Assembly (NCBI GenBank): GCA_000687655.1
Contig: JHWR01000002.1
Span: 186,001-250,000 of the forward strand
DNA: 64,000 bases
Direction of reading: 5' to 3'
Source: Lachnospiraceae bacterium YSB2008
GTDB taxonomy: Bacteria; Bacillota; Clostridia; Lachnospirales; Lachnospiraceae
This document shows, one piece after another, positions 13,261 to 61,516 of the stretch (within the stretch, counting starts at the first letter, position 1; each line of letters begins with the position of its first letter). The position numbers and the translations under genes were made by a program. Below the pieces are notes generated by a model. That model had not been told where the DNA came from and ran no database searches. It saw only the letters and a program-made list of their open reading frames with translations.

Positions 13261-13270
13261 TCGTTTTTAG

Positions 13271-41033: not shown

Positions 41034-41486
41034 TTATTGTTTTCCCTTCAGCAGTAACTGCTTGATTTTCGATACATTTCTTCGTGAAGTATAGGTTTCA
41101 TATCCATTCTTCATTACAACCTTTATTGTTCCTGAAAGGCTCATATCAAGGCTCTTTATCTTCTTATAATTCACAATCTCTGACTTTGATATCCTGACAA
41201 AGTTAAGACTGCCGAATTCTTCTTCCAATTCATAGAGTTTCTTTTGGATAGTATATTTCTTATCCTTATCCATGGCTATAACTCGCTGTCCTTCCGAATA
41301 AAACGAATACACTTCCATTGGACTGATCATACATTTATTTCCCACTTCATCAGTAGCGGAAATAGACGAATCGAAGAATGTATGGAGACTTCCCATCACA
41401 TTCTTCACTTCGTCATTCATTTCATCATTACAAACATGGATTTCTATATCTTTATATTGTTCCTTAATCTCAGACCTGATTTTCAA
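41034..41486 (-). CDS. LytTR-domain DNA-binding regulator
   Basis: About 150 residues. The LytTR domain spans residues ~55-150, including FVRISKSEIVNYKKIKSLD and VMKNGYETYTSRRNVSKIK. No receiver domain is present, as in the LytTR/DUF3021 pairs. TTG 41486 is chosen because AGGA lies seven bases upstream and the protein then begins MKIRSEIKEQYKDIEIHV; GTG 41522 would add 12 residues. A matching 9-base direct repeat lies upstream of the operon promoter, so it probably controls its own operon. Confidence 0.85.
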   Translation of the reverse strand: MKIRSEIKEQYKDIEIHVCNDEMNDEVKNVMGSLHTFFDSSISATDEVGNKCMISPMEVYSFYSEGQRVIAMDKDKKYTIQKKLYELEEEFGSLNFVRISKSEIVNYKKIKSLDMSLSGTIKVVMKNGYETYTSRRNVSKIKQLLLKGKQ

Positions 41487-41596
41487 AGAATCGTTCCTGC
41501 CTTGTATATTATATTTGAACACCTAATACTTATTACTAACAACCAAGTATAAGTATAGATTAATAAATAAACCATAGCAAGAATGATTTATCTCTG

Positions 41597-45293: not shown

Positions 45294-46628
45294 CTACTGA
45301 GGAATCATTATTCCACCAAAATATTCAGGTATACCCTTGCTGTCGTTAAGAATAAATCCCCTAGGCTTAAGAGTAATATATTTTCCATCTGCTTTTTTAG
45401 CACGGTAGGTAATAGAATATAGAACCGGTGTTCCTTCTAAAACAGATGCAGCAGCCTCTACATATTTATCTACATCTTCAGGATGTATATATTTCTTCCA
45501 TACATCTTCTACTTTATACATATAATCCGTCGGAAGACCGAAATCATCTATTGCAGAAAGTGACCATCTGGAAAAATCATATTTAAGGTCAGTCAGGAAT
45601 ATATATCCATCCCCGGCAACGGTATGCAAAGCCCCATATAATCTGTCCAGCTTTCGAATCCTTTCATCAGGGATCTTCTGATCGATTATTTCATGCTTCC
45701 TGATTTCTTCCATAATGCTTCCGGACTTCAATTCAGTTTTATTTGCATACATACGGCCATCAGCCCTGTCGTATACCTCCTGAAAACTTCTGTCTAATTT
45801 AGGATTGTATTTTGCCATACCATATGCAACTACAGGGCCTGTTCGGAGACGTCCGTTGGTTTCTGATTCTTTCTTCAGAATATCAAGTAAGAATTCACGG
45901 TTTTTGAAATCATTACCTGTCAGTATAACGGCAAACTCATCTCCTCCAACTCTGTATACCGAGCTATCCTCAATAACTCCGCATATCATGTGGCTAGCTT
46001 TTTGTATAGCTTCATCTCCAAAGCTGTGCCCTCTGGTATCATTTATACGCTTCAGATCATTTATATCACACATGATAACAGCAAACTCCGGTTCGGAATC
46101 TTCGCTTTTTATCATCTCATCTATTTCGTCAACAATTTCAGTAAAGGCATTTTTATTCTTTATTCCGGTTAATTCATCAAGCCTCATCAGACGTTCAGCA
46201 GATTGAAGAAACATTTCCTGTTCTTCCCTTTCAACAAACTCGGCTTCTATATTTTTAATACAGCCCAGTATATGCTTCCTGTCATCGCATAAAACACTGA
46301 AATGACAAACATGCATTATCTTTCCATCCAGAACAAATCTAAATACAACCAGACTGGAATTGTTTTCAGACAGTTTTTTCAATAGTTTTTCACTGTCAAT
46401 AAGACTCAATACGTAATCAAGGTCATCAGGGTGAACAGTTCTTTTTGCCTGTTCGGACAAAAATGAAAAGAAATCACTTCCCTGTTCCGGAAGGTTCAAG
46501 CCTGATAACATCTCAGAATGAAAAAACTCAATAAAGTTTCCAGATTCAGTATCTACGTAATACAAACTATCAAACTGCTTCGCTAAAGTATGTGCAACCA
46601 AGTCAAATGCTAAATTATCTAGATTCAT
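45294..46628 (-). CDS. PAS-GGDEF-PAS diguanylate cyclase
   Basis: 444 residues. A PAS-like N-terminal region (residues ~15-130) is followed by GGDEF (about 145-300). It has LTGIKNKNAF at the start, the metal-binding CDINDLKRINDTRGHSFGD, and an intact active site RVGGDEFAVIL. No RxxD inhibitory site is seen five residues upstream. A second PAS-like domain (about 340-440) ends the protein. It should make c-di-GMP under control of two sensors. GGGGG lies six bases before ATG. A palindrome at 46709-46721 sits beside its likely -10 box. Confidence 0.88.
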   Translation of the reverse strand: MNLDNLAFDLVAHTLAKQFDSLYYVDTESGNFIEFFHSEMLSGLNLPEQGSDFFSFLSEQAKRTVHPDDLDYVLSLIDSEKLLKKLSENNSSLVVFRFVLDGKIMHVCHFSVLCDDRKHILGCIKNIEAEFVEREEQEMFLQSAERLMRLDELTGIKNKNAFTEIVDEIDEMIKSEDSEPEFAVIMCDINDLKRINDTRGHSFGDEAIQKASHMICGVIEDSSVYRVGGDEFAVILTGNDFKNREFLLDILKKESETNGRLRTGPVVAYGMAKYNPKLDRSFQEVYDRADGRMYANKTELKSGSIMEEIRKHEIIDQKIPDERIRKLDRLYGALHTVAGDGYIFLTDLKYDFSRWSLSAIDDFGLPTDYMYKVEDVWKKYIHPEDVDKYVEAAASVLEGTPVLYSITYRAKKADGKYITLKPRGFILNDSKGIPEYFGGIMIPQ

Positions 46629-46737: not shown

Positions 46738-47784
46738 TTACCATCTGCTCGTTACAATCCAGAATATAAGATTGAACAGCATCACCAGAAGAGGAACGCT
46801 GAAAACAATCAGTCCCAGAATAATCATCTTAGGAATAGATACAGGTCTCTTGCAGTTACCGCGCTGTTTATGACCACTGCATACTACGTTATAAGACTTG
46901 CCTTTATATCTCATGGCTGTGAGCCAGACCGGAACAAGAATATATCTGAATTTCACGTTGCTGTATTCCGTCGAAAGCTGAAGATTTCTGTAAGTATCCG
47001 CACGCTCGTTATTGCAGGCTGCACTCTCAAGTGTTCTGCGCTGATTAGCCTTCGCAAGCCCCCACGCCTCGTCGATTCCTATAGTATATTTCTCGGCAGC
47101 GAAGCCCTGAAGTGCATCCGGCGTATAGGGAACAATGTCCTCAGGCCCAAACTGAATGACAGAATTCAGAAGCTTGTCCCCATAAAAGCGCCTGCTTCCG
47201 CATGTCTTTATATCATTAAATGATTTATTTAATATACCCGATTTCTGCCTCCATTTTGTTCTTGAACTATCACCGGTCTCTTCCGTATAACCGAAATCAC
47301 CGAAATAGGTCGAAACAGTATCGGCATCAAATGTCCAGAAAGGAATATACACACCTACCAGATTACCGAGAACCTTTCCGGTCCTGAAATCCTCCGGAGA
47401 CCATAGTGCCCACTTATTCCATTTGTAGAAGAATTTTTGAACATCTTCTTTTGAAAAGGAAAATGGAATGATACCCATAGGAGTCAACCCATAGTTATTA
47501 TCTTCAACCGGAAGAACACTGTTGGATCCGCAGTATGGGCATGACATGGAAATCTGATTTGGATCATAGAGTGTAACTGCACCACATTGACTACAGCTCA
47601 CCGCCCTTCTTATCAGCTGCCATTCATTTCCGGAATCCCTGACAGCAGACTCAAAATCAACCTCATCCACTATTGCCTGCTCTTCAGGTCTGTGAAGTTG
47701 CTTCGTAAACCCACACGAATCACACATCAGACCGAAACTGGCCGGATCATATCTCATCTCACCGCCACAACAGATACATTTCAT
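46738..47784 (-). CDS. Zinc-ribbon membrane protein
   Basis: 348 residues. Two four-Cys zinc ribbons occur: CICCGGEMRYDPASFGLMC with CDSCG (residues 3-25), and CSQCGAV with CPYCGSNS (near residues 64-88). The middle is soluble (IPFSFSKEDVQKFFYKW, YIPFWTFDAD) and one or two helices lie at the end (about 320-345). This matches the TFIIB-type zinc-ribbon membrane proteins common in Firmicutes, of unknown role. It lies 34 bases after the S37 peptidase and is the last gene of the long leftward run. Confidence 0.75.
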   Translation of the reverse strand: MKCICCGGEMRYDPASFGLMCDSCGFTKQLHRPEEQAIVDEVDFESAVRDSGNEWQLIRRAVSCSQCGAVTLYDPNQISMSCPYCGSNSVLPVEDNNYGLTPMGIIPFSFSKEDVQKFFYKWNKWALWSPEDFRTGKVLGNLVGVYIPFWTFDADTVSTYFGDFGYTEETGDSSRTKWRQKSGILNKSFNDIKTCGSRRFYGDKLLNSVIQFGPEDIVPYTPDALQGFAAEKYTIGIDEAWGLAKANQRRTLESAACNNERADTYRNLQLSTEYSNVKFRYILVPVWLTAMRYKGKSYNVVCSGHKQRGNCKRPVSIPKMIILGLIVFSVPLLVMLFNLIFWIVTSRW

Positions 47785-47818
47785 ACATTTACCCCCATAA
47801 TCTTAACTCTCTGCGGGT

Positions 47819-49318
47819 TTATTTGGCCTGCTCTCCAAGCCATTCATCAAGGATTGATATAATCTCTTTCTTCTTATCTTTCGGCATATTCTTGATGCAG
47901 GAAGAGTGTGGTTTCGACGGATGAACGAATATCTTAATGTTGTCGCTCTCCTTCACCGGCATAGCAACACCATACCATGGATCAGTAGATCCATATATCA
48001 TAAGATGCTTTGCGTTGGTTGTGTCCATGGAGGCAACTAGATTATCGTGTAAAGTACCGTCATATTTAAATGCACTCTTTTCCTCAGGTGTAAACACCAT
48101 GTTCTGCATAAATTCAGCTTCCATATCCTCTGTAACAGATAATCTGTCTGAAAGCCCTTCTTTATCAAGAGCCTCTCTCAGATATGAGAAGTTATAATGA
48201 TACTGACCATATTCAGTAGCTGCATTAACATAGAATGGCCATGGCAGATAATTGGTGCTCCAGTCGCGAGGATCCTGTACTTTAAGAAGCAGCTTGTATA
48301 CAGCATCTGCCTTCTTCTTCCTCTCTTTGTCAGAACCATCAGGCATATCAAGGACCTTCTTAATCATTTTAAAATCTTTACCCGACTGCCAGAACTGCAC
48401 AGCAAACTCCAGCACATTCATGTCATAAAGGCGTTCGGGTGTAGCATAATCCACATATTTTGTTGCAGCCATATTGACTTTTTTCTCATACCTCGGCTTA
48501 AGATCATTCTTATACCTCATGGCTTCAACCTGAAAGGCCAGGACCATATCTCTGTATTCCTTTGCCTGATCTTCACCATAGGCTTCATTACCTATTGTAT
48601 TGTACACATTGTCATAGAAACGTTCATCATCCAGGCCATCCGAACAAGGTGCAACATAAGCCAGATAAACCAGCATATCATCCGGATAATAATAACTGTA
48701 TACATTTGTCTCAAGACCGCCTCGGCTTGTTCCGATAGATAACCATTTATCCCCAAGCACAGACTTGAGAGTCGTGTAAATGTGATGATAATCAGCTGCA
48801 GTATTCTCAGACGTGAAATAAGTCCAGTATTTCACGTCATCATTGGTCATGTCATCAGGTCTTGACTTGCCGCAGAAACGATGCTCAACATGGATATAAT
48901 TACCATTGTAGAGTTTAGCCGACTCGGGTGCGCCTTCAAAAGAAAGCATACCCGGAATCATATTATCCATAAGTCCATAGCCATCTGTTTCGAGAACACT
49001 TACTTTTGAATTCTTACGAACATTAACAATAACTCTTTGAGGGAATTTTCCCGCAGACGGATTATTCCAATCCAACGGCTGCTGATATGTGACTACGTAT
49101 TTTTCAGATATAAAAGAAAATGGAACGTGCCATATTTCTTTAACGTCACTTACGCCATCCATGGCTGAAAGCTCCGTGATTCTCGTCTTATTTCTCTTAA
49201 ATCCAAGATTGTAAAAAATAATGAAGAGTATCACAATTACTCCAAAAATAATGAGGAGACGAATCACTTTGCTTTTCTTCTTCTCTTTAGTTTTCTGCTT
49301 ATTTTCTTCCGGTTCCAT
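47819..49318 (-). CDS. Membrane-anchored S37 (PS-10)-type serine peptidase
   Basis: 499 residues. A basic N-terminus and one helix (residues 20-42) anchor an alpha/beta-hydrolase domain outside the cell. VEHRFCGKSRP and the nucleophile elbow GTSRGGLETN (Ser near residue 195) match S37 tripeptidyl aminopeptidases. GSTDPWYG carries the catalytic Asp and HPSKPHSSCI the His. It should release short peptides from the N-terminus of exported substrates. Its start overlaps the preceding stop by one base. Confidence 0.85.
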   Translation of the reverse strand: MEPEENKQKTKEKKKSKVIRLLIIFGVIVILFIIFYNLGFKRNKTRITELSAMDGVSDVKEIWHVPFSFISEKYVVTYQQPLDWNNPSAGKFPQRVIVNVRKNSKVSVLETDGYGLMDNMIPGMLSFEGAPESAKLYNGNYIHVEHRFCGKSRPDDMTNDDVKYWTYFTSENTAADYHHIYTTLKSVLGDKWLSIGTSRGGLETNVYSYYYPDDMLVYLAYVAPCSDGLDDERFYDNVYNTIGNEAYGEDQAKEYRDMVLAFQVEAMRYKNDLKPRYEKKVNMAATKYVDYATPERLYDMNVLEFAVQFWQSGKDFKMIKKVLDMPDGSDKERKKKADAVYKLLLKVQDPRDWSTNYLPWPFYVNAATEYGQYHYNFSYLREALDKEGLSDRLSVTEDMEAEFMQNMVFTPEEKSAFKYDGTLHDNLVASMDTTNAKHLMIYGSTDPWYGVAMPVKESDNIKIFVHPSKPHSSCIKNMPKDKKKEIISILDEWLGEQAK

Positions 49319-50160
49319 TAAAAACTCCCTTCCTGATTCTCATCTCCATTCATTGGCTCGCCAACAATACCGTCGGCTTCAACCACTTCATCATTAGTTT
49401 TCTTACCCTTCTTTACTTTTTTCACCCTCTCCTTCTTCTTGAACTTGAATACTAGCATCGAAAGCAGAACCGGTACGATGAGATGGATCAGGAACAAAAC
49501 GAAATAAAAGACTTCAGCATCTGAATAAAGAAGCTGCGTATAAGCAGTGTCCGCTGTGACCCTCGGTGCAACTATAATTGCTATTATAAATTCTATTCCG
49601 GCAAAGAATTCAGTTTCTTTAAAGAATACCGCAGCGCCATATGCAAGAACTAAATATACTATTGCCGGTATGATAGGAAATGCGAAAATGTACAGTGTAA
49701 AAAGTGCTGCGCCATAACACGTGATGCTTGCCAGGCAGTCAATACCGATACGGAGTGCAAGCATCCCTATCTGCTCCGATGTACTGTGGGCAGCGAAGCA
49801 AAGCCCGAGCAGCAGTGCAACAATCAGCATCAGGACATGGCAGCATATAAGTATCAGTGAACCGGCGAAGAACTTGGACAGCACGCCTGCCGCTCTGTTC
49901 TTCCCCTTCTCCTCGACCATAACAATCGAAGTACGCGTGAACTTCCTGCAATAAACGCTTATGATCAGCGCGAGACCCGGCAGCCAGCTGAATATATTAT
50001 AAATATAGTCATACATACCGAAGAAATAGGTCTCATCATTCCAATAATCAACCTTCGTATATATCGTTACCGCCAGCGCCCCGAGATAAGTCAGGATGAT
50101 CATCACTATGAATCTTTTCTTTTTAATTATATTTTTTATATCTTCTCTAAGTAATTCCAT
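49318..50160 (-). CDS. Six-helix membrane protein, ABC-2-permease-like
   Basis: About 280 residues with six hydrophobic segments and a Lys/Glu-rich cytoplasmic tail. Topology resembles ABC-2 permeases, but no ATPase is encoded nearby. ATG 50160 is chosen because AGGGG lies eight bases upstream. It lies 11 bases after the M13 peptidase and directly before the S37 peptidase. Confidence 0.6.
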   Translation of the reverse strand: MELLREDIKNIIKKKRFIVMIILTYLGALAVTIYTKVDYWNDETYFFGMYDYIYNIFSWLPGLALIISVYCRKFTRTSIVMVEEKGKNRAAGVLSKFFAGSLILICCHVLMLIVALLLGLCFAAHSTSEQIGMLALRIGIDCLASITCYGAALFTLYIFAFPIIPAIVYLVLAYGAAVFFKETEFFAGIEFIIAIIVAPRVTADTAYTQLLYSDAEVFYFVLFLIHLIVPVLLSMLVFKFKKKERVKKVKKGKKTNDEVVEADGIVGEPMNGDENQEGSF

Positions 50161-50171
50161 AGTCATCACCC

Positions 50172-52217
50172 CTACCAGATCTTGATTCTATATTCAGGCG
50201 CGATATACATGCCGTCGCCCGGGCCTATATCATATTCTTCATAAAACTCCTCATACTGCATCAGAACATAATTTATTCTAAGATATGCCAGAGGATGAGG
50301 ATCTGTCTTGATTCTATCCATGGCATCTCGCTTAGACTCGAGCCTCTGCCAATGGACCGCATACTCCCTGAAGAATGTGTCATAATCAAAATCATCATAA
50401 TCCTTCGCGAGCAGCAGGCATACTCTGCCGCCCTCTATATCAGCGATTGCTTCGCCTGTAATATCATTGGATGCTTCGTAATAACCCGATCCATCAAATG
50501 TTTCAAATGAGGAAAGCTGACTTCTGATTCTGCCTGACATGACGTTCCAGTTCTTAAGATCATCCGCACTGATAAAATCAACGAGATTTCCATTAGCATC
50601 ATAATGAATTCCATGACTGTCAAATGCATGAGACAGTTCATGACCCAATATGGTTCCTATGAATGCAAGCTTCTTCTCAAATGGATCATCTATTGAATAA
50701 GCAGGCTCTTCGAGTATTCCTATATCGATAAAAATAGAATTCATTGGTGGATAATAATATGAATTAACATTCGTAGTTGAAGTATCTGAATTATATATAT
50801 CCCATACAACCTTACCTTCGGCAATTTCAGTCATATCACCTATATGCTCATATTTGAACTTGTTCAGCACACAGAGCGCATCAAGATATGATCCGCCCTC
50901 TTCCGAAGAAACCAGTTCTATTCCTGAATAATCTGCCGTATTCGAAGGCTTCATAACAAACTCATTGATCTTATCAAGCTTTTCTGCAACCGCCTTCTTG
51001 CCCTCGTCCGAGAGCGTTTCATTTTCATTTATTTCTATCTTATATTTTTCCTTAAGCATATGAATGATATTCAGCATATCATCACATACATCCTGATCAT
51101 AATAATAATCTATGTACGCCTGATCCATAGCGCCGCCAAGGAAGGATTCCTTCAGAATCTCATAGAAATACCATTCAGGATCCTTGTCATGTCTCTCCTC
51201 GAAAGGATTGGTCTTATCCATAGCAGTATTTCTGAGCACATCAAATGAATCGCTGTCAAGATACCTGATAGCTTTTTCACAAAGACGCAGCTTGAAATAT
51301 GACTTGATGTCCTCAACATTATTCTCAGTATAAATAGTTTCAAGCTCATCAAGATATACGAGTGCGCCTGAGTAATTCTTGGAATCAGTGATAGAATAAT
51401 GATCCAGCATTTCTCCGAGAGGATATGCACCGGCCTTCTCTATCATTTCGTCTCTTGTATGAACTCCTACATAATCCCAGGTTTCGTTAAATGCCAGATG
51501 AATGAGCTCCGACTCAAAGCGGAAGCCCTGGCTGATAGTCTTATCTATGTCGTCCTTTGTATATCCGCATCGGTCAAGAAGATACTCAACCTGGCTTTCC
51601 TTAGTCTGTTTCTTCTTGAAAGCATCTTCTGTCATATCCAGATAGTATTCTGTCTTTTCGAGAGTAGGTTCCGGCGTCTCGACCATGAGAGTAAAGGCAT
51701 CATCTATACCTTCATCATTAACATAGTCAAGCTCGACAAGTGATAAAGCAAATGGATTGCTGTCGTTATCGATCATATAAGCCGATACGTCAGCAAGAGA
51801 ATTGATATCATCGATACATTTTAAATACTTTTTGAGTGGCTCTACGCCAAGTGAATTTCGATAATCGACATCATAAAGATCGTCCGCAATACGGACAAGT
51901 TCGATATTTTTATTCTGAACGGACTCATCATTTATAAGAGCTCTTTTGTTGGCATCTACTTTCCTGGAAACGTCACCAAAAGGTCCTATAGTATAACTGA
52001 AATCTCGCTCCTGTTTCGTGGACCATTCGTGATTCACGTATGCCGCGAAATCGTCCTTTGGATCGGCATCTGCAGTCTCATCAATAGTCTCGAAAATATT
52101 CGAGTTCGTCCATTGATATGTAAAACCTTCAACTGTAGAAACATCATCGCAACCGACAGTGCCGAGTAACATAGCTGTTGCAACGGCAACTGACATAACC
52201 CTCTTAAATACCTTCAC
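50172..52217 (-). CDS. M13 (neprilysin-like) zinc metallopeptidase lipoprotein
   Basis: About 681 residues. The zinc site HELSHAFDSHG (HExxH, near residue 500) and the third ligand in GEAIADIEGG are present; NSYYYPPMNSIFIDIGIL precedes it, as in the family. The start is taken as GTG 52217, with GGAGG nine bases upstream, giving a signal peptide with lipobox GTVGC, so the enzyme is membrane-linked outside the cell. ATG 52235 would add six residues. M13 enzymes cut short peptides on the amino side of hydrophobic residues. Bacterial roles are little known. Confidence 0.92.
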   Translation of the reverse strand: MKVFKRVMSVAVATAMLLGTVGCDDVSTVEGFTYQWTNSNIFETIDETADADPKDDFAAYVNHEWSTKQERDFSYTIGPFGDVSRKVDANKRALINDESVQNKNIELVRIADDLYDVDYRNSLGVEPLKKYLKCIDDINSLADVSAYMIDNDSNPFALSLVELDYVNDEGIDDAFTLMVETPEPTLEKTEYYLDMTEDAFKKKQTKESQVEYLLDRCGYTKDDIDKTISQGFRFESELIHLAFNETWDYVGVHTRDEMIEKAGAYPLGEMLDHYSITDSKNYSGALVYLDELETIYTENNVEDIKSYFKLRLCEKAIRYLDSDSFDVLRNTAMDKTNPFEERHDKDPEWYFYEILKESFLGGAMDQAYIDYYYDQDVCDDMLNIIHMLKEKYKIEINENETLSDEGKKAVAEKLDKINEFVMKPSNTADYSGIELVSSEEGGSYLDALCVLNKFKYEHIGDMTEIAEGKVVWDIYNSDTSTTNVNSYYYPPMNSIFIDIGILEEPAYSIDDPFEKKLAFIGTILGHELSHAFDSHGIHYDANGNLVDFISADDLKNWNVMSGRIRSQLSSFETFDGSGYYEASNDITGEAIADIEGGRVCLLLAKDYDDFDYDTFFREYAVHWQRLESKRDAMDRIKTDPHPLAYLRINYVLMQYEEFYEEYDIGPGDGMYIAPEYRIKIW

Positions 52218-52234
52218 GCTGTGTAACCTCCACA

Positions 52235-55054
52235 TTATTTTCTTACAAACCTGAATACGCCTGACTTCTCTTCAGGATCGTGGTTTGTGATATAGTCCAT
52301 ATATTTATCAGTCACGTAATCGCTGTTTCCTGAAGCACTTATGTCGTGAAGTATTTCAACTGCTTCTTCTCTACGTCCTTCTCCGAACATACTGATTGCT
52401 TCGCTGAGCATTACGCTGTTATTATGTCGTTTTTCTCTTTCTTCATCAGGAAGGCAGTCAAGAACTTCATAGACTTCCTTAACCTCATTCACTCCTGCAA
52501 CCTGAACAAACCCAAGATATCTTAAATCCAGAGCATCCGGCTGTGTAAGCTTCTCAACCGTATCTTTAGATACAAGCACAGCTGTTTTATATTGTTTTGT
52601 AAGGCTCTCAAATCTTGATGATAGATTGACAGTATCAGAAATAACCGTACCGGAAAGGCGTTCTTCCTCTCCAACAATACCAATCTGTGCCATACCGGTA
52701 TGTATACCAATTCCGATATTAATCTCATCTACACCTATTTTAGCAGCTGTAGAAGAATCCAGAACAATAGCTTTATATATGTCTATTCCACTCCTCAGAG
52801 CATCATCTGCCGTTTCAAACAGTGCCATGATGGCATCACCGATATATTTATCAATAAAGCCATTATTCTTTCGTATTATAGGACCGGCAATACCATAAAT
52901 AACATTAACAAATTCAAAGTTTTCCTTCGTCGTCATCTTTTCTGATATAAGAGAAAATGCTCGTATATCAAGGAAAAGCACTGTAAGCTCTCGACTGTCT
53001 GAATCCCCAAGCTGAAGATCGATAAATTCTTCTTTTCCAAGCAGAGTTCTGAACTGCTCGGGAACAAACTTATAGTAGAACTTCTCTGTTCTGTCCTTCT
53101 CATCAAAGAGCCTCTCCAGATTCTGTCCCATTGAGTTTACTTCATTACAGATATCTCCCATCTCGTCCTTTGACTTATATTCAATCCTTGCGCTAAGATC
53201 ACCCTCTGAGATTCTTTTAACAACTCCTGTAGCTTTCTTTATCATCCTTCTGATATAAAGCGACATAAGCATATTGGTGGCTGCAAAAAAGATAATCACC
53301 ATACATACATAGAATATCATCTTAAGCCATAGTATCCCTCTATATTCATAAAAGGAGTCATTTGTTGTTGTCACCTTAAGATAAATATTCCCGGAAGAGT
53401 TTTTGTCATCTATAAGAGCATAGGCAGATATACTGCTGTACTTAGCTTTTGAGGATAACATATCGTTTATATCCTCAGAGAAATATATACCCTCTTCTCC
53501 ATACATATCCTTATATGTAAAGTCATCTTCTTCAGTAAAAAGAGGCATGCAGGATTTATTCTCATCCGCCAGAATTCCTGCTCTTGTAATATCTGTTCGT
53601 TGTATAATGGAGAATATATAATCTTCACTCCATTTTTCCTTGTGACCGGTACTGATCTCAGACAATTTATTCTGAAGCTTATGATAATCTTTTCCTGTTA
53701 ACTCATTTGCAACAATGAGATTAGAAAAGTCATAGCCATCCAATTCATTAGCTCCAAAATGAGTTATAATACTAAGCTCATTTCTAATACTCTGATTATT
53801 ATGCTCTAAGGTTGTATTATAAATATTTACACCTATAACAATCGCTATTACAGTAAATATAGGAACAGTAACCATTATCTGCTTATAAAAAATGGTCTTT
53901 CTTCTTATAATAAGATTTATAATAATCCCAAATATAGATATGTTATAAACGAAATAAGGTATATAAAGCAGAAATATCAGATAATGATCATCTATCTTAA
54001 GAAGAGTGTCTCTCGCAGTTATTTTCCCATCCTTATAAGTAATCAGCCCATCGGAAAGACATATCGCAAGTACTGATTTACCATTCTCATCTGTATAGGA
54101 GTCTATAAAGCTTATATACTTATTCTCAAATCCTTGTTCATCACCTAAATCAAGTACTTCTTCAGCCGTTCCCTCATTAATCTTGTATATCTTTTCCGGC
54201 TTATTCTTATCAAAAACGAACAGCTCATTATCAATTAAAACTGCATCAGTAAAGTAAGGTGATTTCTCTGTATCAAAATGATACACAACCTCTTTCACCG
54301 GTTCATTAAACTTTGTCTTATATACGTTGCCATCACTTCTGACAAATAGAAAAGAGTCATCAATCGGAATTACACTTACCGTAAATGTACCATTTTCGTC
54401 TGAAGAATAATCCTGACTTATCTCAACCTTTCCGGTATTTGTATCTATCCGATAGAGTTTTGTATTATCTTTATATATAAAACCAAACGTTATATATCCT
54501 TCATAATAATGAAGCCGGCTGATTCCGGATTCCAACTGACTCTCAGTTTCGTCGTACTCTATATCACATATCTTATCTATGTATTTATACTCATTACTAA
54601 GCTTAACAATGCTTTCCTTTGTAAATGATTTGTCTGTTCTGTCTTTATAATATGTCCTTACAGCATATATATCTCCCTGATCAGTTATTACCAGGTTGGA
54701 TGGTGAAAACTTATCTTTATTATCCGCATCTGCAAAGATATCATTGGTAAATGCATAGTTCTTTTCTTTTGTTTCTATATCAAATACTGCCGTATATCCG
54801 TAATATCCAATATCCGATATGGCTGCGATTGTTCCTTTTTCATTAACAGAGAAAGCCTGAACATCCTTAAACCCAGTATCTTTAATTGGATCCTTATTTT
54901 CATCAGTAACTCCATTAATACGGATCGTTATATAATTATCAGTCTGAGTGACAGTAACAATAATTAATGAAACCGTGAGTAATATCAGATACCATCTGAT
55001 TTTTCCGAATAAGGCATATAGAATTTTCTTTAAGAACATTAGTATCTTTTTCAT
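52235..55054 (-). CDS. Membrane class III adenylate/guanylate cyclase with extracellular sensor and HAMP
   Basis: 939 residues. A helix near residues 17-35 is followed by a ~300-residue extracellular region of repeated short strands (propeller-like). More helices lie near 355-385 and 395-415, then another extracellular segment, a helix near 590-612 and a HAMP domain (about 613-665). The cyclase domain (~690-880) has LFLDIRAFS and KYIGDAIMALF for the two metal Asp, and DTVNLSSRFE with the Asn/Arg transition-state pair. It should make cAMP or cGMP on sensing an outside signal. The stop overlaps the start region of the M13 gene. Confidence 0.9.
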   Translation of the reverse strand: MKKILMFLKKILYALFGKIRWYLILLTVSLIIVTVTQTDNYITIRINGVTDENKDPIKDTGFKDVQAFSVNEKGTIAAISDIGYYGYTAVFDIETKEKNYAFTNDIFADADNKDKFSPSNLVITDQGDIYAVRTYYKDRTDKSFTKESIVKLSNEYKYIDKICDIEYDETESQLESGISRLHYYEGYITFGFIYKDNTKLYRIDTNTGKVEISQDYSSDENGTFTVSVIPIDDSFLFVRSDGNVYKTKFNEPVKEVVYHFDTEKSPYFTDAVLIDNELFVFDKNKPEKIYKINEGTAEEVLDLGDEQGFENKYISFIDSYTDENGKSVLAICLSDGLITYKDGKITARDTLLKIDDHYLIFLLYIPYFVYNISIFGIIINLIIRRKTIFYKQIMVTVPIFTVIAIVIGVNIYNTTLEHNNQSIRNELSIITHFGANELDGYDFSNLIVANELTGKDYHKLQNKLSEISTGHKEKWSEDYIFSIIQRTDITRAGILADENKSCMPLFTEEDDFTYKDMYGEEGIYFSEDINDMLSSKAKYSSISAYALIDDKNSSGNIYLKVTTTNDSFYEYRGILWLKMIFYVCMVIIFFAATNMLMSLYIRRMIKKATGVVKRISEGDLSARIEYKSKDEMGDICNEVNSMGQNLERLFDEKDRTEKFYYKFVPEQFRTLLGKEEFIDLQLGDSDSRELTVLFLDIRAFSLISEKMTTKENFEFVNVIYGIAGPIIRKNNGFIDKYIGDAIMALFETADDALRSGIDIYKAIVLDSSTAAKIGVDEINIGIGIHTGMAQIGIVGEEERLSGTVISDTVNLSSRFESLTKQYKTAVLVSKDTVEKLTQPDALDLRYLGFVQVAGVNEVKEVYEVLDCLPDEEREKRHNNSVMLSEAISMFGEGRREEAVEILHDISASGNSDYVTDKYMDYITNHDPEEKSGVFRFVRK

Positions 55055-55063
55055 AAGTGTTTA

Positions 55064-55597
55064 TTATTCTATAACAATTAATGCTGTTCTTCGGCAGGCC
55101 GTAACAATTCTCATAACTGCCGAATACATAACTCCAATGCCAAAAATAATGCCGGTAATATTCAACTGCTTAATGAATACTATGCAAAGAAACGCCATAG
55201 TTATATCTATAATGCCATGAACCAGCTTCAACTTCCAGTTGGGTGATCCTGTTCTCTTTGTCTCAAGTGTTCTTAAAACTCTGACAACTCCTGAGAAGCC
55301 ATGTATTCCAATCAGATACATAAGCACATAATAATGCGGAACGCTTGTAAGTGAACCTGTCAACACGCCAAAATCAAACCAGATAACACCCATAAAGAGT
55401 GACTCTCTTCCACCAACCATATATCGAGCCATAGTGAAATAATACCAGATAGAGCCAATTCCTATCGCTACAAACCAAAAAGCCAGAATAATAACAATAA
55501 GAGGATAGCTTTCCTTTGGATAAAACATCATAACAAACGCTCCCAAAATCATAATGAGCGCAATTGCTATCTCTTTAATTCGCTGCAATTTAGTCAT
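55064..55597 (-). CDS. DUF308-like (HdeD-type) membrane protein
   Basis: 177 residues with six hydrophobic segments, short loops and conserved Gly-rich helices. The layout matches DUF308 proteins. It overlaps the DUF6765-like gene by eight bases and lies nine bases before the cyclase gene. Function unknown. Confidence 0.65.
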   Translation of the reverse strand: MTKLQRIKEIAIALIMILGAFVMMFYPKESYPLIVIILAFWFVAIGIGSIWYYFTMARYMVGGRESLFMGVIWFDFGVLTGSLTSVPHYYVLMYLIGIHGFSGVVRVLRTLETKRTGSPNWKLKLVHGIIDITMAFLCIVFIKQLNITGIIFGIGVMYSAVMRIVTACRRTALIVIE

Positions 55598-56696
55598 TCG
55601 TTATCTCCTGCACAAAGCCAGCCAGCTTATTACCTGACTGGTATATCCTGTCGCATACCAATCCCTTATGAGCTATGGCACCGTCTATAAATAAGCCATA
55701 GAATGTGCCTGACTTTTCCTCGTTCGAGGCATCCACATATTCCTTCTTATACTTGTTCACATCAAAGTCTTCTATCGTTTCTCCTGATAAATCCTCACCA
55801 AATGCTTTCCAGTCAGAGGACGCTGAAAGCTGGCGTTTTCTTAGGATACTATCAATTCTTTCCTCGTAATCCTTTATGGCATCGAAGTCATAAACCTCTG
55901 TCTCAAAGCTCTCGTTCTCTCCACGGATAAACTTCATAGCATATATCATCTGACAAAATGCGTTTCTGTATTCTGAAGGATTGTCCTTTATCATTACCCT
56001 GTAATCATCCCATGCCGGAAGATACATATACTTGATAAATGAATAATCAGGAAGATGTCCCGCCCTTCCATGTCCAAGATTCATGATGGTTTTTTCATTT
56101 CTCTGATACAGGCTGTTAGTATATATGCTTTTATCCAGATCATCCGGTGAGGAAAGGCTATGCTGAAACTTTATCTTACGCTTATGTTCTCCCTTCTCAT
56201 CGGAAATCAACTCATAGAATTCGTCATTTGTATTATTAATGACAAGCGACGGTGTTCCGGCGAAATTTCTGTGTGCCCAGGTATCAGCCATGACATGCAT
56301 GGCAATACCGACCGACTGAAGAGGTTTCCCTTTTGCAAGCTCAACTATATCCTTGACAAGAGTACCGTTAGGCCCACATATAAGACGATACTTATCCATA
56401 TATTTTTTAGGACGCCATTTATCTTTTACAGCATATAGATCTTTTGGAAGGAAATGAAACGAAGCCCATATTCTCGTGATATCCTGAAGCCCTACCATAT
56501 CCGTTCTGGCATCCATCATCTCCATCTGAAGCTGTGTAGTAGCAGCCTTGACAGGAGCCTTAATTCCTGTAAGAAATGTTGCTGAACAAAGATCAACAAA
56601 CTGAGCAGAATAACAAATATCGAGGCATTCCGAATGAGAATATCCGGCCAGAAATGCAGCGCAATATGTTGCATAATAATGAAAATCTTCCTGCAT
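55590..56696 (-). CDS. DUF6765-like protein (phospholipase C/nuclease-fold-like)
   Basis: 368 residues. The start MQEDFHYYATYCAAFLAGYS and the centre IAMHVMADTWAHRNFAG (HxxxDxxxH) are typical of DUF6765. The His/Asp pattern resembles zinc-dependent phospholipase C/P1 nuclease folds, but activity is not shown for this family. No signal peptide, so it should act inside the cell or be held at the membrane by its neighbours. Confidence 0.75.
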   Translation of the reverse strand: MQEDFHYYATYCAAFLAGYSHSECLDICYSAQFVDLCSATFLTGIKAPVKAATTQLQMEMMDARTDMVGLQDITRIWASFHFLPKDLYAVKDKWRPKKYMDKYRLICGPNGTLVKDIVELAKGKPLQSVGIAMHVMADTWAHRNFAGTPSLVINNTNDEFYELISDEKGEHKRKIKFQHSLSSPDDLDKSIYTNSLYQRNEKTIMNLGHGRAGHLPDYSFIKYMYLPAWDDYRVMIKDNPSEYRNAFCQMIYAMKFIRGENESFETEVYDFDAIKDYEERIDSILRKRQLSASSDWKAFGEDLSGETIEDFDVNKYKKEYVDASNEEKSGTFYGLFIDGAIAHKGLVCDRIYQSGNKLAGFVQEITND

Positions 56697-56699
56697 ACG

Positions 56700-57215
56700 C
56701 TACACCTCCTCTTCCACCGACTCTTGCTTAATTAGCTTATCAATCATTAAGGCAGAATAAAAGAGATCAATCAGAATAAAAATAATTGATAAATCAACCA
56801 TTATTGAAGCTATAAATGTAAGATTTATAGTGGTTGCACCCTTCACAATGCCAATGGGATATGCAGCAAGCCCTATAATATTGATAAGCGCAACAATAGA
56901 AGTATATATATAAAACCTTTTTCTGTTCTCCTGGCTTTTCCCGAATCTAACTGCGTTTTTTCCTACCATAAAATGAACAATCATTATAATAGCAAACAAA
57001 AATGCAAGAGAAGCTGTTGTAAATACAACAGCAAATAACCTGTTCACGCCATTTTGCACTGTTTCATCAATTATACGACTAAACTTTATATCACCCATGG
57101 AAAGCTCCATCAAAAGCTTCACCACAGTCCATATACCAAAAATTATATAGCCTCGTCCGCCTATAGCAAGATTATTCTTATAACGTCTCAGTTTAATCTC
57201 TGTTTCAGAATTCAT
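56700..57215 (-). CDS. Four-helix membrane protein, unknown
   Basis: 171 residues with four hydrophobic segments (about 18-38, 60-82, 98-120, 130-155) and an acidic end. No family recognised. It lies three bases before the DUF6765-like start and seven bases after the next gene upstream. Confidence 0.6.
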   Translation of the reverse strand: MNSETEIKLRRYKNNLAIGGRGYIIFGIWTVVKLLMELSMGDIKFSRIIDETVQNGVNRLFAVVFTTASLAFLFAIIMIVHFMVGKNAVRFGKSQENRKRFYIYTSIVALINIIGLAAYPIGIVKGATTINLTFIASIMVDLSIIFILIDLFYSALMIDKLIKQESVEEEV

Positions 57216-57222
57216 CTGATTA

Positions 57223-58365
57223 TCATTCTCCTATTGCATCTTTCAACATACCCTGCTGAAGCTCGCGGGCAAAAGCATCTATGGTCTCCCGGTCAAGATG
57301 CTCGACCACACGCACCGGGTAATTGTTAGGCACCATATCCTTGCCGTATTCCATTTCGATTGTATTCGGACGAAACTCGAAGTCACCGCCACCGGCGTTA
57401 CGGATTGCACCACTCGGGTAGAACTTTCCTTCATAATACGTGGTTATATCCTCAGTCTCGGAAAGTATCACATAGAAAGGTCTGTCAAATGTATCGAAAG
57501 CCTTTCCAAGTCTATAGCTCTCATCAACTCCTATGATAGCATACATTTTTCCATCAACATATAGAATCTTGCACTCAACGTAGCAGTCGGCAAAATACGG
57601 ATAATTCTGTACAGGCTGAGACACAGATGTGTGTGCTTCGTAACGGGCAAGCGGTGCATACTGCATCGTACCGCCCTCTTCCGGAAGAACCAGAATGGAA
57701 TTGTAAATGTAAGCAGGATACTTATCGGTCCCATTAGTCGGGAGAATCACATTATAGTCGACGTTGTCAGCAAAATCCTCTTTCGTAAGAGGCATCATCG
57801 AAGCCTCGGAATAATAATACTTTGCCCATTTCCCGCCGGTGTCGCCGGTGAACCTTCCGTTTAATTTACTCATTAGATCTTCGTCTTTTTCGTCGAAGAA
57901 AAGTCCACGTGAAGCTAAATCATCACGAAAATCCGAAGGAGTCTTATACTCCGATTCATTTACCTTGTAAGCGTCCTTACCGGAATTGTATTTGGTATCA
58001 TAGAGCTTGTTACCTATCATATTTCCGAAGAAACCAAATGCTATAAAGAGAGGTATCGGAATCGCTACGATAAATAGCATAAGAATCTTTAAGCCCATCG
58101 GCGTCAAAGCCATCATCTCCGGTCGGAACTTTACCAGGATGCGTATCGGATTAACAACACAAACCAGAATACCGATTACTCCGAACAATGCCATCCTGCC
58201 GTATAGAAGAATGACAGCTGCTCCAAGCCCTTCCCAGCCCTTGATTCTGTCTACCAGAAGTACAGAGATAACGATAACGAGAACATAAAGAAGAATGGCT
58301 CCTAGGATGAAGCCATATTCTGTTATGATATTCTTTTTTAATACTACATCTATATCTTTAAACAT
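57223..58365 (-). CDS. Membrane protein with large C-terminal domain, unknown
   Basis: 380 residues. Three or four helices (residues 15-40, 50-80, 95-125) are followed by a soluble 250-residue domain with alternating strands, no recognised motif. GGGGGG lies four bases before ATG. It precedes the four-helix protein by seven bases. Confidence 0.62.
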   Translation of the reverse strand: MFKDIDVVLKKNIITEYGFILGAILLYVLVIVISVLLVDRIKGWEGLGAAVILLYGRMALFGVIGILVCVVNPIRILVKFRPEMMALTPMGLKILMLFIVAIPIPLFIAFGFFGNMIGNKLYDTKYNSGKDAYKVNESEYKTPSDFRDDLASRGLFFDEKDEDLMSKLNGRFTGDTGGKWAKYYYSEASMMPLTKEDFADNVDYNVILPTNGTDKYPAYIYNSILVLPEEGGTMQYAPLARYEAHTSVSQPVQNYPYFADCYVECKILYVDGKMYAIIGVDESYRLGKAFDTFDRPFYVILSETEDITTYYEGKFYPSGAIRNAGGGDFEFRPNTIEMEYGKDMVPNNYPVRVVEHLDRETIDAFARELQQGMLKDAIGE

Positions 58366-58394
58366 AAATCCCCCCTGGGAAGGTAAATGCTGAG

Positions 58395-59201
58395 TTACGG
58401 TAAAACAAATTCCTGACTGTTGCCGGAATTATGGTCAAGGTATCTTTCTAATCCCGTATTGACAAAAGGATTTGTATCAGGGGATCTCTTAATGTTAGTC
58501 AAAATATATGCTAAGACAATTATATCATCACGTGATGCCATAAATGATTTTCCGATTCCATAAGGCACGAGGTACTGCAGATCTGCACCATGACCATTAA
58601 CGGATGCATTAATGTACATTTTCTCAACTGGCACATCACCGTCATAGAATGGAGTGCCGAAGTGACCATTCTCTGCGAAGAGATATGAGAAACCTTTAAT
58701 CTGAGGATATTCCTGGAACTGTGCATTGTATTCGTAACCGTAGCAAGTGAATACAACCGTCATATCACCAGTCGGACATGTAAACATATCGGGCAGATAT
58801 TCGCCAAAACTCCAAGATTCAGGGTTAATATTATCCGGCCACCAACCTAAATCAACTGCCATATGGCTGAGCTTGAATACTTCCAGTCCGGCATCGTTGG
58901 TTGTAATATAATCGTCAATATTAACGTCCATTGTTAACTGGATATCGCCATAAACTGTATATGTATGGGAACCGCTCTGCTGAACGAGCTCAGTCGTAGT
59001 CTCGTCGTGCCAGTAGCCGTCGTCGATAGGGTTATCGGGGTCTTTAGGCTCACGATCATTCTCACCGTCTACTGTGCTATACTCAGTTGTCGTCTGAGTA
59101 GTTGATGCCTGCTGCGGAGACGTTTTTTCACAAGCTGTAAGTAAGAGCAGCATGCAGCAAGCCATAATCATAATACTCTTTGTTATTATCCTTTTATTCA
59201 T
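58395..59201 (-). CDS. Lipoprotein, unknown
   Basis: 268 residues from ATG 59201, preferred to 59210 because AAGG then lies at the usual distance. Lipobox LTAC (Cys near residue 24) is followed by a Thr/Ser/Asp-rich linker (TTQTTTEYS), then a beta-rich domain. It lies 38 bases after the HAD gene and 29 before the next membrane protein. Confidence 0.65.
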   Translation of the reverse strand: MNKRIITKSIMIMACCMLLLLTACEKTSPQQASTTQTTTEYSTVDGENDREPKDPDNPIDDGYWHDETTTELVQQSGSHTYTVYGDIQLTMDVNIDDYITTNDAGLEVFKLSHMAVDLGWWPDNINPESWSFGEYLPDMFTCPTGDMTVVFTCYGYEYNAQFQEYPQIKGFSYLFAENGHFGTPFYDGDVPVEKMYINASVNGHGADLQYLVPYGIGKSFMASRDDIIVLAYILTNIKRSPDTNPFVNTGLERYLDHNSGNSQEFVLP

Positions 59202-59239
59202 CCTTAACATCCTTCTTATACACCTATTTCTTATAATTC

Positions 59240-60055
59240 TTATAAATCGAGTATTTGCTTAAGCGCTAGAGCCAGACCGTCATGATCATTATCTGTCTCG
59301 GTAATAACATCTGCAGCAGCTTTGACTTCTTCCATTCCATTTATCATGGCAATTCCTGTTCCGGCCGCCTTGATCATCGAAAGGTCATTTCCGGCATCCC
59401 CTGCTGCAATTGAATTCTCACGTGGTATACCGAGAATCTCACAAAGCTTTATAAGTGCTGCTCCTTTGCCGGATTCCTTCGGAATGAGTTCCAGATAATA
59501 ATCACTCGAATACATCAACGAAAGCTCATCACCGAAAGCCTTTTCAGCCGCCTCTTTGAATCTTTCCTGTTTCTCATGATCATGAAGCTCTATACAAATA
59601 ACCTTGCAAGGCGGAACACTGAGATGACTCATAAAATCAGGCCCTGTCAAAAGAGGTGTTTTTATAACCCTCTTATAAAATGCAGTACACTCATTTTCTT
59701 CCCTGGCAATAATATGGGAATCATTGTATGTTTGAACATGTATATCATACTCGCGTGCGAGTTCGAATATCTCAGCAACACGTTCCTGTCTAATACCTGT
59801 CCTGAATACAGTCTCGTTATTATCTATATCAAAGATCTGACCGCCGTTATATGCTATGGCATATGAGCCTGGAAGATTTAATCCAAGCTCTTTATAAACG
59901 AGTCTTGTACTGTTTATATCACGTCCTGAACATAAAGCAAATATATTGCCCCTGTCAGAATATTTTTTCAAAATGTCTTTGGTATAAGGGGAAACTATCT
60001 TGTCTGAAGTTAGAAGTGTATCGTCAAGATCAGTAAGGAATAAATATCTTTCCAA
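59240..60055 (-). CDS. HAD-superfamily (Cof-type) phosphatase
   Basis: 271 residues from TTG 60055, which has GGAGG eight bases upstream and starts MERYLFLTDLDDTLL. HAD motifs: DLDDTLLT (nucleophile and acid Asp), CSGR, and GDAGNDLSMIKAAG for motif IV. The C2-type cap between motifs II and III marks a Cof/YbjI sugar-phosphate or FMN phosphatase type. Substrate unknown. First gene of the long leftward run, behind a palindrome-controlled promoter. Confidence 0.9.
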   Translation of the reverse strand: MERYLFLTDLDDTLLTSDKIVSPYTKDILKKYSDRGNIFALCSGRDINSTRLVYKELGLNLPGSYAIAYNGGQIFDIDNNETVFRTGIRQERVAEIFELAREYDIHVQTYNDSHIIAREENECTAFYKRVIKTPLLTGPDFMSHLSVPPCKVICIELHDHEKQERFKEAAEKAFGDELSLMYSSDYYLELIPKESGKGAALIKLCEILGIPRENSIAAGDAGNDLSMIKAAGTGIAMINGMEEVKAAADVITETDNDHDGLALALKQILDL

Positions 60056-60063
60056 ATGAATAT

Positions 60064-60068
60064 CCTCC
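60064..60068 (-). promoter_or_regulatory. Shine-Dalgarno supporting the TTG start of the HAD gene
   Basis: GGAGG lies eight bases upstream of TTG 60055 and decides the start over the ATG 33 bases further upstream. Confidence 0.65.
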
Positions 60069-60110
60069 GAATAATATACAGTTATCAAATAGCTGTACTA
60101 TTTAGAGTCT

Positions 60111-60140
60111 ATTTTATCATTGTTTTGAAAACAATGACAA
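60111..60140 (-). promoter_or_regulatory. Promoter with palindromic operator, head of the 13-kb leftward run
   Basis: Reading leftward: TTGTCA, 18 bases, TAAAAT. The perfect palindrome CATTGTTTTGAAAACAATG (60118-60136) fills the spacer, so a bound repressor would block RNA polymerase. Confidence 0.6.
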
Positions 60141-60240
60141 TAATTATTCATAGTAAGAATTAATCAGCTCTCTCACTCCCTTTTTTTTCTACTTTTTCAT
60201 ATTATATCTTTAATACCTGAAGAAAAGAACGATAGTTTCA

Positions 60241-60272
60241 AAAAAAAGGAGCTCGTGACCGGCACGAACTCC
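60241..60272 (-). terminator. Intrinsic terminator of the transglutaminase operon
   Basis: On the minus strand GGAGTTCGTG pairs with CACGAGCTCC and is followed by seven T, right after stop 60278. Confidence 0.9.
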
Positions 60273-60277
60273 TAAAC

Positions 60278-61516
60278 TTACTGATTAAAACTTAGTGTAA
60301 TAATGTTATATCCATCTACACCACCTTTAGTCACCTGATAGCTACTTATACCACTATATTCAAAGATAAAGCTCATGGAGTCTTCATCTATATTTGCATT
60401 AGTAACTGCGCATTCGATGGTATCAAGATTTCCGTTGGATAACTGACTTCCAACATAATCATGGAAGTCGGATTCGCTTTGGAAGAACAGATTATTCATA
60501 GAGTAATAGTTAGCATCATTAGATGAACATACCTCTGTTTCAGCTTTATCCCATTCGTGATTATTACTGAGAATGGTGTCATCCACATTGAAATAAGTAT
60601 GTTCCAACACTTCTTCGTCTGCTATAGGATCATCCCATGTAACGTCGAGGTTGTACCAAACACCGTCAATCTTAACCTGATTCCACATATGTCCATCTAC
60701 AGCTTTTCCATCATTATTAATGATTTTACCATCGTTTCCTGATCCATCCGGATTACTTGTGTCAGCTGCATTGTTGTTATTAGTATGACCGACAACAAGT
60801 TTGGCTTCTATACCACAGCATTTTAACAGGAGTGCTGCAGTACGGGCATAGCCTTCACATACAGCCTTGTTATTTATCAGAACTCCATATGAATTAAATT
60901 CGGAGCCATCATTTGCATCACTGATTCCATATGTACAATTATTAACGATATAGTCATGAATAACGAGTTCTTTTTCGTAGTCAGACATTGAATCCTTAAT
61001 ACTGGATTTGATGAAAGATTCACAAGCTTCCTTGATCTTAATAGCATTTTCTCTATCTGAAGGAATCTCTTTTCCCTCTGTTATAGCCTCGTATACCCAG
61101 TATTCATCAGTCTTTTTGAAATCATAGTTAATTCCGACATAGTAGTCTGAAATCTCAGGTCCATCACCTTCCTTAGTCGTTGATGTTGAATAAGAAAAAA
61201 CTGTTGCTCTACCAAGAAATGGATCGATACTTCGACCAATTCTCTTTATATCATCTTCACTGAATTTTCCGGGAACACTCATATATATATTATCAGTTTC
61301 ATCAGCTATAATGGCAGCTTCAAGTCTATTATAGATATCTTCTTCAGTATAAACTGTATCCTTTTGAAGTTCTTCCATAACAGATGCTTCCTGACTATCC
61401 AGTTCTTCCTGTCTTTTACGTTCGGAACGCTTTCCAGCGAAATAGAGAAAAACAAATAACAGGATAAATCCCACAAACACAATATAGAATTGTACTTTCT
61501 TTCTATTCATATTCAT
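60278..61516 (-). CDS. Membrane-anchored transglutaminase-like protein
   Basis: 412 residues from ATG 61516, overlapping the previous stop as ATGA. One helix (about residues 8-28) is followed by a long linker and the transglutaminase core. Catalytic residues are Cys in KAVCEGYARTAALLL (near 228), His in GHMWNQVKIDG and Asp in WYNLDVTWDDP. Bacterial members act as Cys proteases or cross-linkers outside the cell; which is not known. It is coupled to the Cys-rich lipoprotein gene. Confidence 0.85.
   Translation of the reverse strand: MNMNRKKVQFYIVFVGFILLFVFLYFAGKRSERKRQEELDSQEASVMEELQKDTVYTEEDIYNRLEAAIIADETDNIYMSVPGKFSEDDIKRIGRSIDPFLGRATVFSYSTSTTKEGDGPEISDYYVGINYDFKKTDEYWVYEAITEGKEIPSDRENAIKIKEACESFIKSSIKDSMSDYEKELVIHDYIVNNCTYGISDANDGSEFNSYGVLINNKAVCEGYARTAALLLKCCGIEAKLVVGHTNNNNAADTSNPDGSGNDGKIINNDGKAVDGHMWNQVKIDGVWYNLDVTWDDPIADEEVLEHTYFNVDDTILSNNHEWDKAETEVCSSNDANYYSMNNLFFQSESDFHDYVGSQLSNGNLDTIECAVTNANIDEDSMSFIFEYSGISSYQVTKGGVDGYNIITLSFNQ

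Follow-up and report, generated by a model that had tools for sequence, protein, structure and literature searches.

Putative lineage-specific run of membrane, cyclase and peptidase genes in Lachnospiraceae bacterium YSB2008 and a candidate LytTR-type regulon in its sister species

Several described systems come close to the genes treated here. For LytTR-type regulation, the 10-bp repeats of the SilA operator are separated by 11 bp, a spacing that must be exact (PMC2766830). In LRS the distance between the repeats is 11-13 bp, the promoter that they directly precede has an extended -10 element, and there is autoregulation (PMC6193735). The M13 enzyme PepO is described as degrading Streptococcus pheromones and limiting signalling (PMC5167397). 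The locus compared with them lies in a window of 64,000 nucleotides from Lachnospiraceae bacterium YSB2008 (contig JHWR01000002.1, positions 186,001 to 250,000), where eleven minus-strand open reading frames (ORFs) follow each other tightly between window positions 60055 and 46738. They include a membrane class III cyclase (Cyc), an M13 and an S37 peptidase, and a triad of the membrane protein Mem171, the DUF6765 protein and a DUF308 membrane protein. The run is read here, with moderate confidence, as a lineage-specific joining of this old triad, of genes belonging to a LytTR regulon in sister species and of local recruits, together with a circuit between extracellular peptide and cAMP.

The sister species resemble LytTR regulons of the AgrA, SilA, VirR and HdrR type in having a GHKL kinase, a LytTR regulator and direct repeats of period 21 upstream of a promoter, and they resemble LRS in the extended -10 and in apparent autoregulation of the regulator. 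They differ in their targets, which are surface peptidases, an amidase and, via operons, a class III cyclase, and the run of the window differs further in being without a regulator. The M13 protein is of the PepO kind and could limit a peptide signal as PepO does in the control of Rgg/SHP in Streptococcus; unlike that system it has a membrane partner gene and, in sister species, a LytTR-type operator, and no Rgg or SHP, neither of which was searched for, was seen here. Literature searches on M13 peptidases with LytTR, on class III adenylate cyclases with Lachnospiraceae and, in full text, on DUF6765 turned up no paper, and those on LytTR, Lachnospiraceae and quorum sensing and on adenylate cyclase, Butyrivibrio and cAMP gave, among the papers listed, none that by title and start of abstract bears on the run. 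A regulon with named promoters would offer a testable peptidase-cyclase circuit in gut Lachnospiraceae, one not met in these searches.

Kinase-regulator genes and a candidate operator in sister species

For DUF6765 relatives, the best 80 of 226 loci from genome contigs (61-90% identity) were searched with 17 window genes, and the distribution of genes was counted in 61 genomes of the genus and, for DUF6765, additionally in 200 genomes of the family. G-numbers denote genus or sister genomes (G000 being the own genome and G214 the closest sister) and L-numbers fetched loci. Since the ORF picker favours the longest ORF, some real genes escaped it, for instance Mem283 in L148, the regulator in L144 and DUF6765 in L134 and L140, and ORF-based counts are lower bounds.

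Beside relatives of the run genes in sister species, the neighbours include GHKL kinases with a HATPase_c_5 domain, response regulators that combine Response_reg with LytTR, amidases that carry choline-binding repeats, a papain-type surface protein and a CPBP/Rce1 protein. The LytTR match in L149 scored 21.8 in hmmscan, under the Pfam cut-off of 22.6, and 23.6 in a second search, above it. Strong GHKL matches, set at E 1e-11 or better after the list had been viewed (the best of the own genome, 1.3e-11 on another contig, just misses), numbered 26 in 41 Mb of 14 genomes picked for having the genes in question. A strong match lies within 5 kb at 6 of 15 Cyc places (0.10 expected; four of 19 Cyc rows, from genomes outside the GHKL search, were left out), at 4 of 9 M13 places chosen from 38 (0.08 expected) and at 2 of 9 DUF6765 places chosen from 17 (0.08 expected). 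In G214, a LytTR regulator stands 30 nt upstream of Mem171 and heads the order Mem171-DUF6765-DUF308-Cyc-M13-Mem283-S37. The GHKL kinase there (L142:5858-7330), divergent from the regulator, is a 306-amino-acid (aa) ORF without the HATPase domain, which sits in another frame, and it appears either split between frames or wrongly assembled.

A direct repeat (TGCACSRAWTG twice, period 21) was seen by eye in the intergenic regions between kinase and regulator of five genomes and, weaker, in a sixth. A first matrix from six seed sites was scanned over 2.49 Mb at a threshold of 14 bits, which nothing reached in 3 Mb of simulated sequence read on one strand. With loci duplicating the same places left out, 14 non-seed sites at or above the threshold fell in 408 kb of Cyc/M13/S37 stretches versus 3 in the remaining 1970 kb (nominal p 8e-9), these being 2 in 79 DUF6765 loci from genome contigs and 1 in 56 others. 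No site fell in the window, in 5 further M13 loci, in 9 DUF6765 loci of the genus or in the two stretches of the own genome that have a GHKL or LytTR match. GHKL-kinase loci in general were rejected as carriers of the operator, with 0 sites in 13 of 17 other strong GHKL places; nine of these 13 have a LytTR match, in a search that covered all of them but G242:C386 and the three G204 loci.

The site L142:1696 was dropped because it lies inside the cyclase gene, and 19 sites remain with the seeds included. Their targets are the regulator or a CPBP-regulator set in 6 genomes, M13 in G236, G232 and two places of G223 (3 genomes), S37 in G204 and G248, the amidase in G236 and G223, CPBP-Cyc in G224 and a 389-aa gene in G204, while two sites in G218 and one in G223 have no clear target. 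The distance to the called ORF start is 40-189 nt for 13 of the 19 and 343 nt for one; another overlaps a start that was probably called too early, and four have no called start, of which one, in G236, precedes a LytTR match. Orientation relative to the gene is identical in all 16 assignable sites. By a pattern that was widened after the site sequences had been read, an extended -10-like element begins 25-26 nt past the motif in 15 of the 19; the full TGnTATAA is present in 11. The core pattern has a chance of 0.00045 per position. On a second matrix, made from 18 sites, these sites scored 21.6-44.3, and no unrelated place in the 2.49 Mb exceeded 16.9; the nineteenth site, L147:6390, reached 42.3 without a -10. 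The regulators of the sister species are predicted to bind these repeats.

The run in the window and the conservation of its parts

Clustering of ORFs in the 80 DUF6765 loci gave three near-universal neighbour clusters, DUF6765 (79), DUF308 (73) and Mem171 (69); the next commonest, a chained cluster of GGDEF-like and response-regulator-like ORFs, occurred in 26. In 73 of 79 places the gene that comes next 3' of DUF6765, on its strand, is DUF308, a 4-nt overlap being the commonest arrangement, and Mem171 is immediately upstream in 68 of 80 places, mostly at 15 nt or less. The window has the same order on its minus strand, with the small membrane protein Mem171 at 56700..57215, the soluble DUF6765 protein (PF20551, E 1.4e-72) at 55590..56696 and the DUF308 membrane protein (PF03729), overlapping DUF6765 by 8 nt, at 55064..55597. 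A separate draw of 7 Lachnospiraceae loci had both partners in 5, Mem171 alone in 1 and neither in 1, and at 11 loci outside the family (3 from one genus) divergent DUF6765 genes have neither partner within about 1.5 kb. DUF6765 was found in 11 of the 200 family genomes (10 above cut-off) and in 16 of the 61 genus genomes. On this gene order, Mem171-DUF6765-DUF308 is a conserved three-gene module of the Lachnospiraceae, apparently older than the run, and a module around DUF6765 is hereby isolated; its three proteins probably act together at the membrane. At two of the scanned loci outside the family, L160 and L164, the divergent DUF6765 gene lies near DUF4474 genes.

Next to the triad on the minus strand come Cyc (52235..55054), M13 (50172..52235), Mem283 (49318..50169) and S37 (47819..49318). 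The M13 protein, of the PepO/neprilysin family (PF01431 and PF05649), has an intact zinc site (HELSH 532, EAIAD 595) and is possibly a lipoprotein; it matches NF052391 at E 1.9e-39 but with 135.9 bits against a cut-off of 1000. Relatives of M13 occur in 25 of the 61 genus genomes, Cyc in 15 and Mem283 in 8, and in 7 of these 8 Mem283 adjoins an M13 gene. Mem283 is a multi-helix membrane protein, for which a first idea of an ABC-2 permease found no support in Pfam. The S37 peptidase, of PS-10 type (PF05576, E 7.8e-26), has an N-terminal anchor and a GTSRGG motif and gave nothing meaningful against PDB sequences; it occurs in 4 of the 61 genomes, all four with Cyc, and in G204 about 9 kb separates the two genes, which share a strand. 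Co-occurrence in the 61 genomes, nominal as relatedness was not corrected for, exceeded expectation for Cyc with DUF6765 (9 vs 3.9), with S37 (4 vs 1.0) and with Mem283 (5 vs 2.0) and for M13 with Mem283 (7 vs 3.3).

Among the stretches fetched, only G214 keeps the order S37-Mem283-M13-Cyc-DUF308-DUF6765-Mem171, with identities of 75-91%. L022 keeps Mem171-DUF6765-DUF308-Cyc, and in a distant genome L036:3911-11649 has a tight five-gene run, in which a secreted-looking protein of 908 aa bearing a GHSRGG motif stands between Cyc (45%) and the triad. Cyc was rejected as a member of the old core, as it adjoins the triad only in the window, G214, L022 and L036 among the loci examined. The first-pass annotation had linked the eleven genes in one run, a view to be refuted if they scattered independently in related genomes. 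For the eleven-gene whole they largely do: in the stretches examined, relatives retain parts only, none together with HAD, the lipoprotein or Mem380, and an eleven-gene conserved system was rejected.

What holds from that annotation is the architecture, as the eleven ORFs lie where it had placed them, with gaps from head to tail of 29, 29, 7, 3, -8, 9, -1, 2, -1 and 34 nt. Pfam matches were obtained for HAD (Cof type), DUF6765, DUF308, HAMP with class III cyclase, M13 and S37, and the cut-off was not reached by the lipoprotein, Mem380, Mem171, Mem283 and the zinc-ribbon protein (ZnR). Four genes, all on the minus strand, look like local recruits from their distribution: the head gene, a Cof-type HAD phosphatase (59240..60055; PF08282, E 1.8e-60, and TIGR00099), without homolog at E 1e-5 in the G214 stretches; a lipoprotein without family (58395..59210; lipobox LTAC, residues 24-27), unmatched in the 80 DUF6765 loci and the G214 stretches; Mem380, also without family (57223..58365; three N-terminal TM-like, i.e. 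transmembrane-like, segments), matched in 6 of the 61 genus genomes and outside the window never on contigs of DUF6765 or Cyc matches; and ZnR (46738..47784; CxxC pairs at 3, 21, 64 and 82, C-terminal TM), whose 34% relatives stand beside DUF308 in 2 of the 80 loci, on the opposite strand. Co-occurrence of Mem380 with Cyc was not above expectation (3 vs 1.5). One of the six Mem380 matches, on a separate contig of G214 (G214:C44:36884-37000), is a stretch of 39 residues with 69% identity to the start of the protein. In G233 (L132:7232-9221), a transglutaminase-type gene with 53% to the gene at 60278-61600 of the window adjoins Mem171, so part of the neighbourhood upstream of the window's run is also near the triad there.

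The first-pass annotation saw one head promoter. A candidate (TTGTCA-18-TAAAAT, with TG before the -10) is present on the minus strand at 60111..60140 and is not a LytTR-type operator; it is a consensus match only, in a region with fewer promoter-like sites (49) than the shuffle mean (59.7). It is preceded by a strong intrinsic terminator of the preceding gene (minus strand, 60247..60273; 11-pair stem and T run). A GGDEF/PAS protein (minus strand, 45294..46628; PF00990 and PF08447) follows ZnR, and since no terminator-like site was called in the 109 nt between them, the run may hold a twelfth gene and end at the next strong intrinsic terminator, at 45282-45250 (minus strand, 14-pair stem and T run), the likely transcript end. 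The tight co-directional packing is real, and the run may be one transcript.

The DUF6765 protein and the cyclase

Eight residues of DUF6765 (Q32, D35, H81, H134, D138, H142, H209 and D217) are invariant in 67 of 67 sequences, the 11 distant ones included, and H6 is kept in 66. No TM-like segment was found in the protein. Its AF2 model is of good internal score (pLDDT 88.3, pTM 0.90), and with it Foldseek returned nothing from PDB or BFVD at E 0.001. In hhalign, the comparison with Lachnospiraceae PF00882 proteins was weak (probability 3.8%, E 0.011) with only the HxxxDxxxH stretch aligned, a second PF00882 group gave E 0.057, and DUF308 and Mem171 as controls gave E 0.2 or higher; the profile met only designed repeat proteins among PDB sequences, at E 0.67 or worse. 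The order H-D-H-HxxxDxxxH-H-D presumably resembles the trinuclear zinc sites of phospholipase C/P1 nuclease. For membership of that zinc-dependent superfamily, the ordered His/Asp series is present and nearly invariant, with a tentative likeness to the known sites, and neither profile nor fold similarity was detected by hhalign or Foldseek. DUF6765 is probably a metal hydrolase of no assigned class, to go by these conserved residues.

In Cyc, the catalytic residues D696, K736, D740, T803, N810 and R814 are the same in all 7 relatives aligned, and we take them to be two metal-binding Asp, the adenine Lys, and Thr, Asn and Arg of an adenylate-type site with a Lys/Thr pair. Among solved structures, those of bacterial adenylate and photoactivated cyclases are nearest in sequence to the catalytic domain. 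The product is predicted to be cAMP. The full-length model is poor (pLDDT 43.8), the propeller region alone being usable: in the model, residues 61-349 form an all-beta domain with a pLDDT of 60-90 in most blocks of ten residues, and Foldseek returned 845 PDB chains at E <=0.001, those listed being mostly propeller proteins by name. If the N-terminus is inside, the TM-like segments at 15-33, 365-383, 393-411 and 574-592 would leave the propeller and a second domain on the outer side of the membrane; HAMP and the catalytic domain complete the protein. Compared with cyclases of the CyaC/CyaB1 type, Cyc is alike in the outer sensor with HAMP and in the metal, Lys/Thr and Asn/Arg positions, and differs in the beta-propeller ectodomain and the second extracytoplasmic domain. 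Near full-length relatives were found only in this genus, in G125 and in L036. A second Cyc-family cyclase (38%) of the own genome, in L129 (G000:C9:79000-98999), has a weak match of GHKL kinase type (E 1.3e-7) at a distance of about 3.2 kb.

A proposed circuit and the rival explanations

In the sister species, the proposed sensor of an extracellular cue, probably a peptide, is an AgrC-like GHKL kinase. It would activate the AgrA-like LytTR regulator; bound to the direct repeats just upstream of extended -10 promoters, the regulator would then turn on itself and the surface peptidases. Cyc would be co-expressed, from the same operon in G214 and behind the CPBP gene in G224. The run of the window would hang on another promoter, with Cyc as the only evident outer sensor left in it; Cyc would signal the presence of the peptide, or the state of the membrane, through cAMP, and the peptidases would meanwhile use up the peptide. 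By parsimony, regulator and kinase would have been lost in the window rather than never present, and the run may exemplify target genes that were kept while their regulator went. The idea put forward earlier, that cyclase and peptidases form one extracellular-peptide circuit, gains indirect support in this narrower shape from the peptidases and cyclase often standing beside a GHKL/LytTR pair of peptide-sensing type in sisters and from the operator that several of the peptidase genes share there, the peptide signal and the cAMP output being its conjectural parts. A fuller account, of a Gram-positive circuit in which AgrC/AgrA-like peptide sensing switches on the propeller cyclase and peptide-destroying peptidases and a peptide cue is converted to cAMP, and in which the lineage of the window lost the two-component system and has a self-standing cyclase operon fused to DUF6765 as a new membrane-linked metal hydrolase system, is improbable as a whole.

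Several results weigh against a lineage-specific joining with such a circuit. The window run is without operator (best 8.4 on the second matrix; run head 60056-60290 at -7.3 on the first), a simple repeat search at its head gave none, and no remnant of regulator or kinase was found there (tblastn E 0.67 or worse), so a LytTR circuit would apply to it by analogy. No strong GHKL match lies inside 10 kb at 9 of 15 Cyc places, Cyc occurs in only 2 of the 80 DUF6765 loci (L022 and L036), and no operator lies directly before Cyc, one Cyc being directly downstream of an operator-led CPBP gene. Five sites (L144:6496, L145:13357, L147:6390, L147:14296 and L149:7262) share spacer letters and are possibly one promoter copied, and the p values are nominal because the genomes are related and cut-offs were chosen after the lists had been viewed. 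No gene for a pheromone or precursor peptide was noticed, with no systematic search for one made. Co-occurrence shows no excess for Cyc with M13 (8 vs 6.1) or for DUF6765 with M13 (6 vs 6.6 expected). This last figure, a chance level, also suits plain co-directional packing, by which unrelated housekeeping and surface genes would share a transcript without common function, as do the absence of links of HAD, the lipoprotein, Mem380 and ZnR in relatives and the single genome with the longer order. Such packing is nevertheless unlikely, given a triad conserved family-wide, the adjacency of M13 and Mem283 in nearly all genomes that have Mem283, and sister peptidases that share a specific operator with the regulator.

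Maintenance of envelope or lipids is likewise possible but unlikely; here DUF6765, in concert with DUF308 and Mem171, would be a phosphodiesterase, whether phospholipase-C-like or other, and the peptidases and cyclase would serve envelope stress rather than peptide signalling. The His/Asp series with its apparent likeness to zinc phospholipase C/P1 nuclease, the PF00882 profile match falling there, the GHSRGG protein between cyclase and triad in L036 and the sister operators before amidase genes with choline-binding repeats all agree with this, against which stand the weakness of that profile match and the empty Foldseek result. Peptide nutrition, with an operon that harvests oligopeptides and a kinase and cyclase that report food and not kin, is held to be rather doubtful: M13 and S37 are presumably oligopeptidases by family and many related records come from rumen samples, but no peptide importer was found in the run or in the 30 sister-neighbour ORFs scanned, and an AgrC-like kinase would suggest a specific ligand.

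Outside the run, a LytTR-domain protein of 162 aa is encoded at 41034-41522, about 5 kb past the run tail (LytTR match G000:C2:227052-227333). It is too short for a receiver, two small ORFs come next, and it possibly represents a LytTR regulatory system of its own. A tmRNA gene lies on the minus strand at 13268-13612.

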